From Polaromonas sp. SP1 (GTDB lineage: Bacteria; Pseudomonadota; Gammaproteobacteria; Burkholderiales; Burkholderiaceae_C): a stretch of DNA of 64,000 nucleotides. The position numbers were made by a program, and so were the translations under genes. Location: assembly GCF_003711205.1 (NCBI RefSeq), contig NZ_CP031013.1:3390501-3454500 (forward strand). Direction: 5' to 3'. Below, one piece after another: positions 44,369-49,852 of the stretch; positions within the stretch are counted from its first letter, which is position 1; every line of letters starts with the position of its first letter. The notes below the pieces were generated by a model. That model was not told the DNA's origin, ran no database searches, and saw nothing but the letters and a program-made list of their open reading frames with translations.

Positions 44369-44638
44369 GGCTGGAGGTCGGAAATTTCTCATAAATCACT
44401 TTAACTATAAAAAATAGTAGATTGATTTATATGGATATTTTAGAAAAAAAGTCTTGACTTGAACAAGACCGGCCAAGTCCCATTTATTTTCCCGGGGACT
44501 CCTTTTCTTCTCCATTGCATTAGGGTGTTCAAGCGCCGATTGAGGTTTCAGGCTTCAGTCACCAGCTGCATATCTGACAATTCATATTTGCAGCAACGGG
44601 TTTCAGGCGTTCCCTTTGGTTTCAGGCACGGAAATTGT
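44369..44638. other. gene-free region with AT-rich island before rimP
   Basis: No credible reading frame is seen. Bases about 44388-44460 are strongly AT-rich (CTATAAAAAATAG; TTGATTTATATGGATATTTT) against a GC-rich background. A hairpin GTCTTG/CAAGAC is at about 44451-44469. It may hold upstream promoter (UP-like) or nucleoid-protein sites. No T-tract terminator for yejF was found. Confidence 0.6.
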
Positions 44639-44667
44639 TTGCATCGAAGGGCGCGGCACGTTACAAT
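44639..44667 (+). promoter_or_regulatory. sigma-70-like promoter candidate for rimP-nusA-infB
   Basis: TTGCAT (44639-44644), a 17-bp spacer, and TACAAT (44662-44667). A start near 44674 would place the hairpin leader directly after the transcription start. Confidence 0.5.
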
Positions 44668-44682
44668 AAGAGCTTCACGACC

Positions 44683-44719
44683 AAATGGGCGGGTTTTCAC
44701 CGCCCATTTTTTTTGGGCG
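44683..44719 (+). promoter_or_regulatory. rimP leader with terminator and alternative hairpin
   Basis: AAATGGGCGG (44683-44692) pairs with CCGCCCATTT (44700-44709) and is followed by T-rich sequence: an intrinsic terminator form. CGCCC (44701-44705) can instead pair with GGGCG (44715-44719), putting the U-run into the loop. The two are mutually exclusive. A rimP leader has been described in other proteobacteria; whether this is the same structure needs a covariance search. Confidence 0.7.
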
Positions 44720-44763
44720 TTTGTTTTTGAACGATTGATTTAAACCGGGTATTAAAAGACTGA

Positions 44764-45360
44764 ATGGCATTGCAAGAGACGATTGAGCAAACTGTGACTG
44801 GGCTGGGCTACGAGCTGGTCGAGATCGAGCGCACCGGCGGCGGTTTGCTGCGCGTCACGATCGACATGCCCTACGTCCAGGGCGCCGAACAGTTCATCAA
44901 TGCCGAAGATTGCGAAAAAGTCACCCGCCAGCTCCAGTTTGTGCTGGAAGTCGAAGGCGCCGAATATGCGCGGCTGGAGGTCAGCTCCCCCGGCATCGAC
45001 AGGCCCCTGCGCAATGAAAAGGATTTTGAGCGTTTTGCCGGGGAGTTGATCGACATCACCCTCAAGGCGCCGATTGGCGTGGCAGCCAGCGCCGGTTCAA
45101 CCGTCGCGGCCAGCCGCAAGAAATTCCGCGGCACGCTGGAACGTGCCGCGACCGGTACAGCCGGCTGGCAAATCGTCTGGAGCGACGAGCCCGCCGTGAA
45201 ACCTGGCCAAAAAGTTAGCAAGAAGAAGGTCCCCGCACCGCTGCAGGCGCTGGGTTTTACGCTCGACGAGATCCATCAGGCGCGCCTTGCGCCCGTGGTT
45301 GATTTCAAGGGGCGTAAACCCAAAATAGCCCCTGGTGCCGAACCCTCTACAGACAATTAA
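44764..45360 (+). CDS. rimP: ribosome maturation factor RimP
   Basis: A 198-residue protein needed for 30S subunit maturation. N-terminal alpha/beta domain: ETIEQTVTGLGYELVEIERT, INAEDCEKVTRQLQFVLEVE, LEVSSPGIDRPLRNEKDFER. The C-terminal SH3-like half has an insertion rich in Ala/Ser/Thr/Lys (residues about 108-160), longer than in E. coli RimP (about 150 residues), as in many betaproteobacteria. It is first in rimP-nusA-infB, preceded by an attenuator-like leader, with nusA 33 bp downstream. Confidence 0.94.
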   Translation: MALQETIEQTVTGLGYELVEIERTGGGLLRVTIDMPYVQGAEQFINAEDCEKVTRQLQFVLEVEGAEYARLEVSSPGIDRPLRNEKDFERFAGELIDITLKAPIGVAASAGSTVAASRKKFRGTLERAATGTAGWQIVWSDEPAVKPGQKVSKKKVPAPLQALGFTLDEIHQARLAPVVDFKGRKPKIAPGAEPSTDN

Positions 45361-45393: not shown

Positions 45394-46920
45394 ATGAATC
45401 GCGAACTGTTGATGTTGGTGGATGCCATCTCGCGTGAAAAAAATGTGGAACGTGACGTCGTCTTTGGCGCCGTCGAGCTCGCGCTCGCCTCGGCCACCAA
45501 GAAGGTGTACGAAGGCGAAGTGGACATCCGCGTGGCCGTCGACCGCGACAGCGGCAATTACGAGACCTTCCGCCGCTGGCTGGTGGTGCCTGACGAGGCC
45601 GGCCTGCAAAACCCTGAAGCCGAAGAGCTGGTCAGCGATGCCCGCGACGAAATCGCCGACATCGAAGAGGGCGACTACATCGAAAAGCCGGTGGAAAGCC
45701 TGCCCATCGGCCGTATTGGCGCGCAAGCCGCCAAACAGGTCATCCTGCAAAAGATCCGTGACGCCGAGCGCGAAATGCTGCTCAACGACTTCATGTCGCG
45801 CGGCGACAAGATTTTTGTGGGCACCGTCAAGCGCATGGACAAGGGCGACATCATTGTCGAATCCGGCCGTGTTGAAGGCCGCCTGCGCCGTTCCGACATG
45901 ATCCCGAAGGAAAACCTCCGCTCCGGCGACCGCGTCCGCGCCATGATCATGGAAGTGGACACGACCCTGCGCGGCGCGCCCATCATCCTCTCGCGCACCG
46001 CGCCCGAGTACATGATCGAGCTGTTTCGCCAGGAAGTCCCTGAAATCGAGCAGGGCCTGCTGGAGATCAAATCCTGCGCCCGTGACCCCGGCTCTCGCGC
46101 CAAGATCGCCGTGCTGTCGCACGACAAGCGCGTCGACCCGATCGGCACCTGCGTCGGCGTTCGCGGCACCCGTGTCAACGGCGTGACCAACGAACTCGCC
46201 GGCGAGCGCGTCGACATCGTGCTGTGGAGCGAAGACCCGGCCCAGTTCGTGATCGGTGCGCTGGCTCCGGCCAACGTGTCTTCCATCGTGGTGGACGAAG
46301 AGCGCCACGCCATGGACGTCGTCGTCGATGAAGAAAACCTGGCGATTTCGATCGGCCGGGGCGGGCAGAACGTGCGCCTTGCCGCCGAGCTGACCGGCTG
46401 GAAGATCAACATCATGACGGCCGACGAGTCTGCCCAGAAGCAGGCCACCGAAACCGACACCAGCCGCAAGCTTTTCATGGAAAAGCTCGACGTGGACGAG
46501 GAAATCGCCGACATCCTGATCTCCGAAGGCTTTACCAGCCTGGAAGAAGTGGCTTATGTGCCGCTGCAGGAAATGCTGGAGATCGAATCCTTCGACGAAG
46601 ACACCGTCAATGAGCTGCGCACGCGCGCCAAAGACGCACTCTTGACGATGGAAATCGCCAAGGAAGAAAATGCCGAAGGCGTTTCGCAGAACCTGCGCGA
46701 CGTTGAAGGCCTCACGCCTGAGCTGATCGCCAAACTTACGGAAGCGGGCATCAGCACCCGCGACGACCTGGCCGATCTGGCTGTGGACGAACTTACCGAT
46801 ATCACCGGCCAGTCTGCGGACGAAGCCAAAGCCCTGATCATGACCGCTCGCGCGCATTGGTTTACCGATGAGCCCGCTGCCGCTGACACCCCTGCACCCG
46901 CAGCGGCCCAAGAGCAATGA
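45394..46920 (+). CDS. nusA: transcription termination/antitermination factor NusA
   Basis: A 508-residue RNA polymerase-binding factor. N-terminal domain [21 protein letters not shown]1 domain ([20 protein letters not shown]), two KH domains ([40 protein letters not shown]), and two C-terminal acidic helix-hairpin-helix repeats ([40 protein letters not shown]). Full length for the proteobacterial type. It lies 28 bp before infB and is co-transcribed with rimP and infB as in most bacteria. Confidence 0.97.
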
Positions 46921-46948
46921 TCATGAAAGGCCTGCAGGAAAAAAACAT

Positions 46949-49852
46949 ATGTCCAGTACCACTACCGTCGCTGAATTCGCAGCTGAACTCAATAAATCTC
47001 CCGCCACGCTGATCGAGCAATTGACCAGCGCCGGGGTTGCCAAGGCGCAAGCCAGCGACCCCCTGTCCGAGGCGGACAAGCAGAAGCTCCTGGGCTATCT
47101 GCAGGCCAGCCATGGCACCGTCACGGCCGAGCGCAAAAAAATCACGCTGGTGAAAAAGTCCACCAGCGAAATCAAGCAGGCCGACGCCACCGGCAAAGCC
47201 CGCACCATCCAGGTGGAAGTCCGCAAAAAGCGCACCTTCGTCAAACGCGAGGACGGCTCCGACCTGCCCGCGGAAGAAGTCCAGCCTGAAGTGGCTGCAG
47301 CGCCGCAGGCGCCCGTCATCGACCAGGCCGAACTCATCCGCCGCGAGGAAGAAGCCAGCCGGCACGCAGAATTGCTGCGCCGCCAGGAGCAGGAACTCGC
47401 CGAAAAACGCCGTCTGCGTGAAGAGCAGGACGCCAAGGACGCCGCCCGCGAGCAGGAACGCCTGGCCGCCGAGCACACCGCCCAGGCGGCCGCCGCCGCT
47501 GCTGAAGCCGCCGTCGTCAAGAAGGCCAAGCCCGCCGGAAAAGCCAAGGAAGCCGCTCCGGCCACGGCCGAAACGGCCAAGGCCGCAGAGACCGCCGCCG
47601 CCGAGCAAGCCACCAAGTCGGCTGATGCCGCCGCGGCCGCCGCTGCCGCCAAAGCCAAGGCCACCGCTGAATTCCAGGCCGATGCCGCCAAGGCGCAAGA
47701 GCTGCAGGATCGCCGCCGCAAGGCCGAGGCCGAGGCGGCCGGCATCCGCGCCATGATGTCGGCGCCCAAGCGCGTCCTGGTGCCGCACGTCGACCCCAAG
47801 GCCGCCATCAAGGGCACGTTGCACAAACCGGCCGGCGCGCCGGGCGCAGCCGCCAGGCCCGGCGCTCCCGCTGCTGCGGGCGCACCGGCCGCAGCAGGCA
47901 AGAAAGAAGTCAAGTCGGAGAACCTGTCTTCGACCTGGAAAGACGACGCAGCCAAGAAAAAGGGCATCCCGAGCCGTGGCGCGCCCGTCGTGCCGGGCCG
48001 TGGCAATTTCCGCAGCGGCCCGCGCGGCCGCCGCAGCAACGACCGCGAAGCACGTCCGGAATCCACGTTTGTGGCGCCGACCGAGTTCAAGGTCATTGAA
48101 GTGCACGTGCCCGAAACCATCACCGTGGCCGAACTCGCCCACAAGATGAGCGTCAAGTCTTCCGAGGTGATCAAGCACTTGATGAAGCTTGGCCAGATGG
48201 TCACCATCAACCAGCCGCTGGACCAGGACACCGCCATGATCGTGGTGGAAGAAATGGGCCACAAGGCGGTCACCGCCGCGCTGGACGATCCGGAAGCCTT
48301 TACCGACGAAGACGTCCATGGCCAGCAGGCAGAACTTCTGCCGCGCGCACCGGTTGTCACGGTCATGGGCCACGTCGATCACGGCAAGACCTCGCTGCTG
48401 GACTACATCCGCCGCGCCAAGGTGGCCGCGGGCGAAGCCGGCGGCATTACCCAGCACATCGGCGCCTACCACGTGGAAACCCCGCGCGGCATGGTGTCCT
48501 TCCTGGATACCCCGGGCCACGAGGCGTTCACAGCCATGCGTGCCCGTGGCGCTCAGGCGACCGACATCGTGATTCTGGTGGTGGCTGCCGACGACGGCGT
48601 GATGCCGCAAACCAAGGAAGCCATCAAGCACGCCAAGGCGGCTGGCGTTCCCATCGTGGTTGCCATCAACAAGATCGACAAGCCGGGCATCAACCTGGAA
48701 CGCGTCAAGGGCGAGCTGGTCACCGAAGAAGTGATTCCCGAAGAGTTCGGCGGTGATGTGCCTTTTGTGGGTGTCTCCGCCCATACCGGCGCCGGCATCG
48801 ACGCCCTGCTGGAGCAGGTGCTGCTGCAGGCCGAAGTGCTTGAGCTGAAGGCGCCGGTGGATGCACTGGCCAAGGGCCTCGTCATTGAAGCCCAGCTGGA
48901 CAAGGGCCGCGGCCCCGTGGCCACCGTGCTGATCCAGGCCGGTACGCTCAAAGCCGGCGATGTGGTGCTGGCCGGCTCGACCTACGGCCGCGTGCGCGCC
49001 ATGCTGGACGAAAACGGCAAGCCGATCAAGAGCGCGGGTCCGTCGATCCCGGTCGAGATCCAGGGCCTGACCGACGTGCCCCAGGCCGGCGATGAGTTCA
49101 TGGTGATGACCGACGAGCGCCGCGCCCGTGAAATCGCCACCTACCGCGCCGGCAAGTTCCGCAATACCAAACTGGCCAAGCAACAGGCCGCCAAGCTGGA
49201 GAACATGTTCTCCGACATCGGCGCCGGCGAAGTCAAAATGCTGCCCATCATCATCAAGGCCGATGTGCAGGGTTCGCAGGAAGCCCTGGCCCAGTCGCTG
49301 CTCAAGCTGTCGACAGACGAGGTCAAGGTCCAGCTGGTGTACTCCGGGGTCGGCGGTATTTCCGAGTCCGACGTCAATCTGGCCATCGCCTCCAAGGCGG
49401 TGGTGATCGGCTTCAACACCCGCGCCGATGCCCAGGCCCGCAAGCAGGCCGAAAACAACGGCGTGGACATTCGTTACTACAACATCATTTATGACGCTGT
49501 GGACGAGTTGCGCTCCGCGATGTCGGGCATGCTGACGCCGGACAAGAAGGAAGAAGTCATCGGCAATGCCGAGATCCGCCAGGTGTTCAAGGTCAGCAAG
49601 ATCGGCTCGATCGCCGGCTGTATGGTCACCGCCGGTGTGGTTCGCCGCAACGCACGCCTGCGCCTCTTGCGCGAGAACGTGGTCATCTTCACGGGTGAAC
49701 TCGACTCGCTCAAGCGCTTCAAGGACGACGTCAAGGAAGTCAAGGAAGGCTTCGAGTGCGGCTTGAACGTCAAGGGCTACAACGACATCCAGGTTGGCGA
49801 CATCCTGGAATTCTTCGAAATCAGGGAAGTGGCCCGGACGCTGGAGGCCTGA
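46949..49852 (+). CDS. infB: translation initiation factor IF-2
   Basis: A 967-residue GTPase that delivers initiator tRNA to the ribosome. The start is the ATG at 46949 ([20 protein letters not shown]); the frame to 46868 is only the nusA shadow. The N-terminal ~400 residues are Ala/Glu/Lys-rich and contain a long Ala-rich helix. The G domain has GHVDHGKT at 474-481, then DTPGHEAF and NKID. The C-terminal domains II-IV are complete. rbfA follows 67 bp later. Confidence 0.97.

Follow-up and report, generated by a model that had tools for sequence, protein, structure and literature searches.

A promoter-proximal terminator ahead of rimP-nusA-infB in Polaromonas as a candidate site of NusA feedback

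Described leaders of the rimP-nusA-infB operon

The general rimP-leader was described by Naville & Gautheret in 2010 as a GGGc...gCCC motif located 4–130 nt from the rimP start codon, with no antiterminator and with NusA as the candidate regulator (PMC2965389). In Bacillus subtilis, NusA-stimulated termination in the leader autoregulates nusA, as stated in a 2025 review citing Mondal et al. 2016 (PMC12288461). The Nus-dependent terminators of this bacterium tend to be weak and to have interrupted U tracts. In Escherichia coli, transcripts of the operon increase in mutants with reduced NusA termination (PMC6511841).

The window studied here is the whole 64,000-nt stretch of the Polaromonas sp. 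SP1 genome that was analysed. On its + strand, it encodes rimP (44764..45360; NCBIfam NF011235, 343.7 bits, cut-off 297), nusA (45394..46920; TIGR01953, 389.8 bits, cut-off 253.4) and infB, the gene of IF-2 (46868..49852; TIGR00487, 866.8 bits, cut-off 424.4), whose true start is probably a little 3' of the mechanical ORF start at 46868. The RimP protein is 98% identical to that of Polaromonas sp. YR568.

The terminator and its conserved core

Direct reading of the + strand upstream of rimP reveals an intrinsic terminator stem-loop at 44683..44709, with a folding energy of −16.7 kcal/mol. Its 10-bp stem is formed by AAATGGGCGG (44683-44692) paired with CCGCCCATTT (44700-44709) around a 7-nt loop (44693-44699), and it carries the signature GGGC (44687-44690)...GCCC (44702-44705). 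The U tract, also on the + strand, comprises eight T residues (44707..44714), three of which also pair at the base of the stem, and 49 nt separate its end from the start of rimP. Five terminator-like sites were found in the region, against 2.0 expected from shuffles, and the two hairpins named in the original prediction were among them.

We compared the regions upstream of rimP in the window, its 80 closest relatives, 40 more genomes of the same family and 40 genomes from 31 other Burkholderiales families (161 in total), and added 20 genomes from other gammaproteobacterial orders. Using a strict core pattern (NGGGC-loop-GCCC-T run) and dinucleotide shuffling as a control, we detected the core in sense orientation at 151 of the 161 Burkholderiales loci, against one of 161 on the antisense strand and a mean of 0.25 in the shuffles, the loci being related and the trials not independent. 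Most of the ten loci lacking the strict core have a slightly changed copy of it, and the core was also present in 14 of the 20 loci from other gammaproteobacterial orders. The element reaches 1.5–1.8 bits per column, compared with 0.08 (+45 to +70) and 0.27 (−60 to −40) in the flanks, and conservation drops to background directly beyond it. Within Comamonadaceae, the T run consists of exactly eight residues in 85 of 96 rows. The terminator hairpin with a U run, as originally predicted, is thus real and conserved. By eye, one locus (L132) shows a candidate hairpin altered on both arms (GGGAC...GTCCC), a rare departure from GGGC/GCCC. Outside Comamonadaceae (L128-L180), the sequence 3' of the hairpin often contains a conserved and interrupted U tract, approximately TTTTTT(A/G)TTTGTGG, which is common to Burkholderiales and the other gammaproteobacterial orders.

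The GGGC/GCCC pairs are constant over 82 distinct arm pairs, partly by construction, as the search pattern demands them. For the next three stem pairs, the count of double-change cells was 17, whereas a shuffle that ignores relatedness gave 3.4 on average and never more than 8. In 38 sequences from other families, 99.1% of the stem cells are paired, four of the six pairs never vary and covariation is thin. Given that GGGC/GCCC never varies and that covariation outside the family is thin, the terminator appears to be conserved above all as a sequence. A covariance model (R1) trained solely on other families and run on the 4.5 Mb genome ranked the window terminator first genome-wide with 29.7 bits, followed by a site with 23.5 bits, while the second-best site within the window scored 14.5 bits.

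The gene order around the hairpin allows it to be read as the ordinary 3' terminator of upstream ABC-transporter genes, with no role in the control of rimP: an ABC ATPase gene lies upstream of rimP here, an arrangement shared by 72 of 80 relatives, and the terminator scan detected no other + strand terminator between the two. However, a conserved promoter lies at a fixed distance between the ABC gene and the hairpin (see below), and the hairpin is kept where the neighbour of rimP is a 5S rRNA gene (L155) or a tRNA gene (L165, L167), so that it goes with rimP and not with the upstream gene. We therefore regard this explanation as very unlikely, although the hairpin may, as a second role, end ABC-transporter transcripts.

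Promoter coupling and alternative pairings

A consensus scan identified a sigma-70-type promoter on the + strand, TTTGCA-18-TACAAT (alternatively TTGCAT-17; 44638..44667), within a conserved block of columns. This match, together with its fixed distance to the hairpin in relatives, bears out the earlier suggestion of a plausible promoter just upstream. It predicts a +1 position near 44672-44677, and the hairpin would begin about 10 nt past this start. The distance from the end of the −10 hexamer to the hairpin core is a constant 18–20 nt in all 78 scored Comamonadaceae loci, against about 8 to more than 200 nt in other Burkholderiales according to the same, crude scan. Given the 18–20 nt spacing, only about 10 nt of RNA would precede the stem in Comamonadaceae, leaving no space for an aptamer, an upstream ORF or an upstream antiterminator.

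These first bases form a segment of their own, CTTCACGACC (44673..44682, + strand), with about 1.6 bits per column in Comamonadaceae, compared with 0.08–0.3 in the flanks. Roughly the first ten bases of the transcript are thus nearly invariant in this family, although the terminator stem does not include them. The genome has a single copy of the 12-mer TTCACGACCAAA; the strict core pattern has one further match there, and no further match is accompanied by the 5' segment. The near-invariant CTTCACGACC and the close linkage of hairpin and promoter are lineage-specific traits. A speculative and rather improbable reading is that the Comamonadaceae leader acts as a promoter-coupled stop signal, in which NusA or another factor would recognise the invariant CUUCACGACCAAA and the GGGC/GCCC hairpin together as a single sequence-specific site, halting RNA polymerase before it has transcribed more than about 40 nt.

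The invariant 5' segment could also be expected if the short terminated RNA were a trans-acting small RNA, or if the hairpin served mainly to shield readthrough mRNA at its 5' end. A rimP leader fragment does occur among the ProQ-associated small RNAs of enterobacteria (PMC5391140), but no target is known, and for mere 5' protection the U tract and its invariance would be superfluous. We give both versions very little weight, marginally less than the ABC-transporter explanation.

The original prediction was of an attenuator built from two competing hairpins, the second pairing CGCCC (44701-44705) with GGGCG (44715..44719, + strand). This pairing can form, and as both stems use 44701-44705 they are indeed mutually exclusive, which is the point in favour of an antiterminator. 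In relatives, however, the third base of the GGGCG arm drifts between G, T and C. Of 26 distinct, equally long Comamonadaceae rows, just 10 have the alternative stem perfect and 14 have its third pair broken, and none contains a compensatory change; the prediction had itself named the lack of covariation as evidence against this stem. The absence of compensated changes is explained by the 5' arm, CGCCC, being fixed by the terminator. In the leader ensemble, the pair probability of the stem is about 3e-5, forcing it costs 6.9 kcal/mol, and it is dominant in none of 38 sequences, while about 7% of shuffled downstream sequences offer a 5-bp partner by chance. Furthermore, the GGGCG arm would be transcribed after the U tract, too late to act as an antiterminator. 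The alternative stem is therefore a weak by-product that does not exceed chance, and the conserved or covarying antiterminator of a classical two-hairpin attenuator was not found in these sequences. Of all the explanations considered, the classical attenuator is the least credible. It is also unneeded, since neither the B. subtilis mechanism as reviewed nor the 2010 family description calls for an antiterminator. It is a sequence-specific GGGC/GCCC stem, rather than any competition between folds, that is most strongly constrained.

We also considered, and rejected, an outer CGACC/GGTCG stem that would extend the terminator across the U tract. Ramlibacter-like sequences make it look attractive (9 of 26 rows have it perfect, and its probability exceeds 0.5 in 33 of 38), but the segments on either side of the hairpin gave 5.85 pairs with each other in Comamonadaceae, against 5.68 with shuffled downstream sequences, and results were similar elsewhere.

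Putative NusA feedback and comparison with known systems

The explanation we favour, with a probability of roughly 60%, is that NusA-stimulated premature intrinsic termination limits rimP-nusA-infB without an antiterminator. The promoter-proximal terminator would stop a share of the RNA polymerases after about 40 nt, ahead of the operon, and the fraction reading through would set operon expression. NusA, itself encoded in the operon, would most likely stimulate pausing and termination at the hairpin, so that readthrough would decrease when NusA is high and increase when NusA is low, with no antiterminator hairpin involved. Direct feedback by NusA was already raised as a possibility in the original prediction, and this part of it is plausible, having been proposed in PMC2965389 and reported for B. 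subtilis nusA in PMC12288461; at the present locus, we infer both termination in vivo and its dependence on NusA.

The strength of the hairpin bears directly on this dependence. The median folding energy is −16.7 kcal/mol in Comamonadaceae, compared with −11.2 to −12.6 kcal/mol elsewhere, and the U run is an uninterrupted eight residues, compared with mostly six elsewhere; other Burkholderiales typically have weaker stems and interrupted U tracts. Given this strong hairpin and uninterrupted U8, set against the weak Nus-dependent terminators of B. subtilis, the Comamonadaceae hairpin may terminate largely without NusA. The element could then work constitutively as a promoter-proximal terminator, or be tuned by a different factor (NusG, RimP or an RNA chaperone), with a fixed or otherwise controlled leak into the operon. 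NusG too stimulates B. subtilis terminators with weak A-U pairs at the bottom of the stem, and the invariant sequence suggests a specific reader. On the other hand, NusA is the reported regulator of the B. subtilis counterpart, according to the same review, and in E. coli it is the operon's classical repressor, as cited in PMC2965389 and PMC6511841. We consider a constitutive terminator or another factor possible but unlikely, and retain NusA-stimulated termination as the preferred explanation.

Two Rfam families concern the same leader. RF01770, the gammaproteobacterial rimP leader, belongs to the same operon and shares the downstream hairpin motif as described in PMC2965389; its model covers a leader of 102 positions, longer than the element studied here. 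Its covariance model matched the E. coli control but gave no match in the window at E values up to 10 and none in the genome, and membership of RF01770 was rejected. RF02420 (Bp1_162, Bp1_Cand612_SIPHT) was reported as an RT-PCR-validated Burkholderia small RNA (PMC3521395). In a Burkholderia-like genome, its model aligns to the rimP leader at 69.9 bits, antisense to rimP (L122:146-242, corresponding to G267:C44:373275-373371, plus; RimP at G267:C44:372873-373166, minus). A second genome (G168) has a weaker match, again next to rimP and antisense to it, whereas a third, weak one (G154) lies away from rimP; the window itself reaches no more than 21.1 bits (minus strand). RF02420 thus resembles the window element in sitting on the rimP leader, and differs from it in having a model that represents the antisense strand. 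It is likely that the RNA detected as RF02420 is the rimP leader, and the strand chosen for the family may be the wrong one.

The Polaromonas leader resembles the B. subtilis system of NusA autoregulation (Mondal et al. 2016, as reviewed in PMC12288461) in having an intrinsic terminator in the leader of the nusA operon; there, the extent of termination sets expression. Experimental proof belongs to B. subtilis only, while the Polaromonas hairpin, known from its sequence, is stronger than typical Nus-dependent ones. Terminators of the B. subtilis type are suboptimal, with a weak hairpin or an interrupted distal U tract; with −16.7 kcal/mol and U8, the present one is not weak, but such lower strength and interruptions do prevail in other Burkholderiales. 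The B. subtilis leader in PMC2965389 is 180 nt long, whereas the hairpin here would begin about 10 nt past the expected start.

The closest likeness is to the general rimP-leader of PMC2965389. As there, a short GGGc...gCCC terminator is directly followed by a T stretch ahead of rimP-nusA-infB, the distance to rimP (49 nt) falls within 4–130 nt and no antiterminator is visible; the longer stem of 10 bp and the uninterrupted U run set the present element apart. By these features, we assign it to the general rimP-leader as a new, uncurated member of a family known since 2010. Self-limitation of a core transcription factor, experimentally supported elsewhere, would thereby extend to Burkholderiales, with many members that can be annotated.
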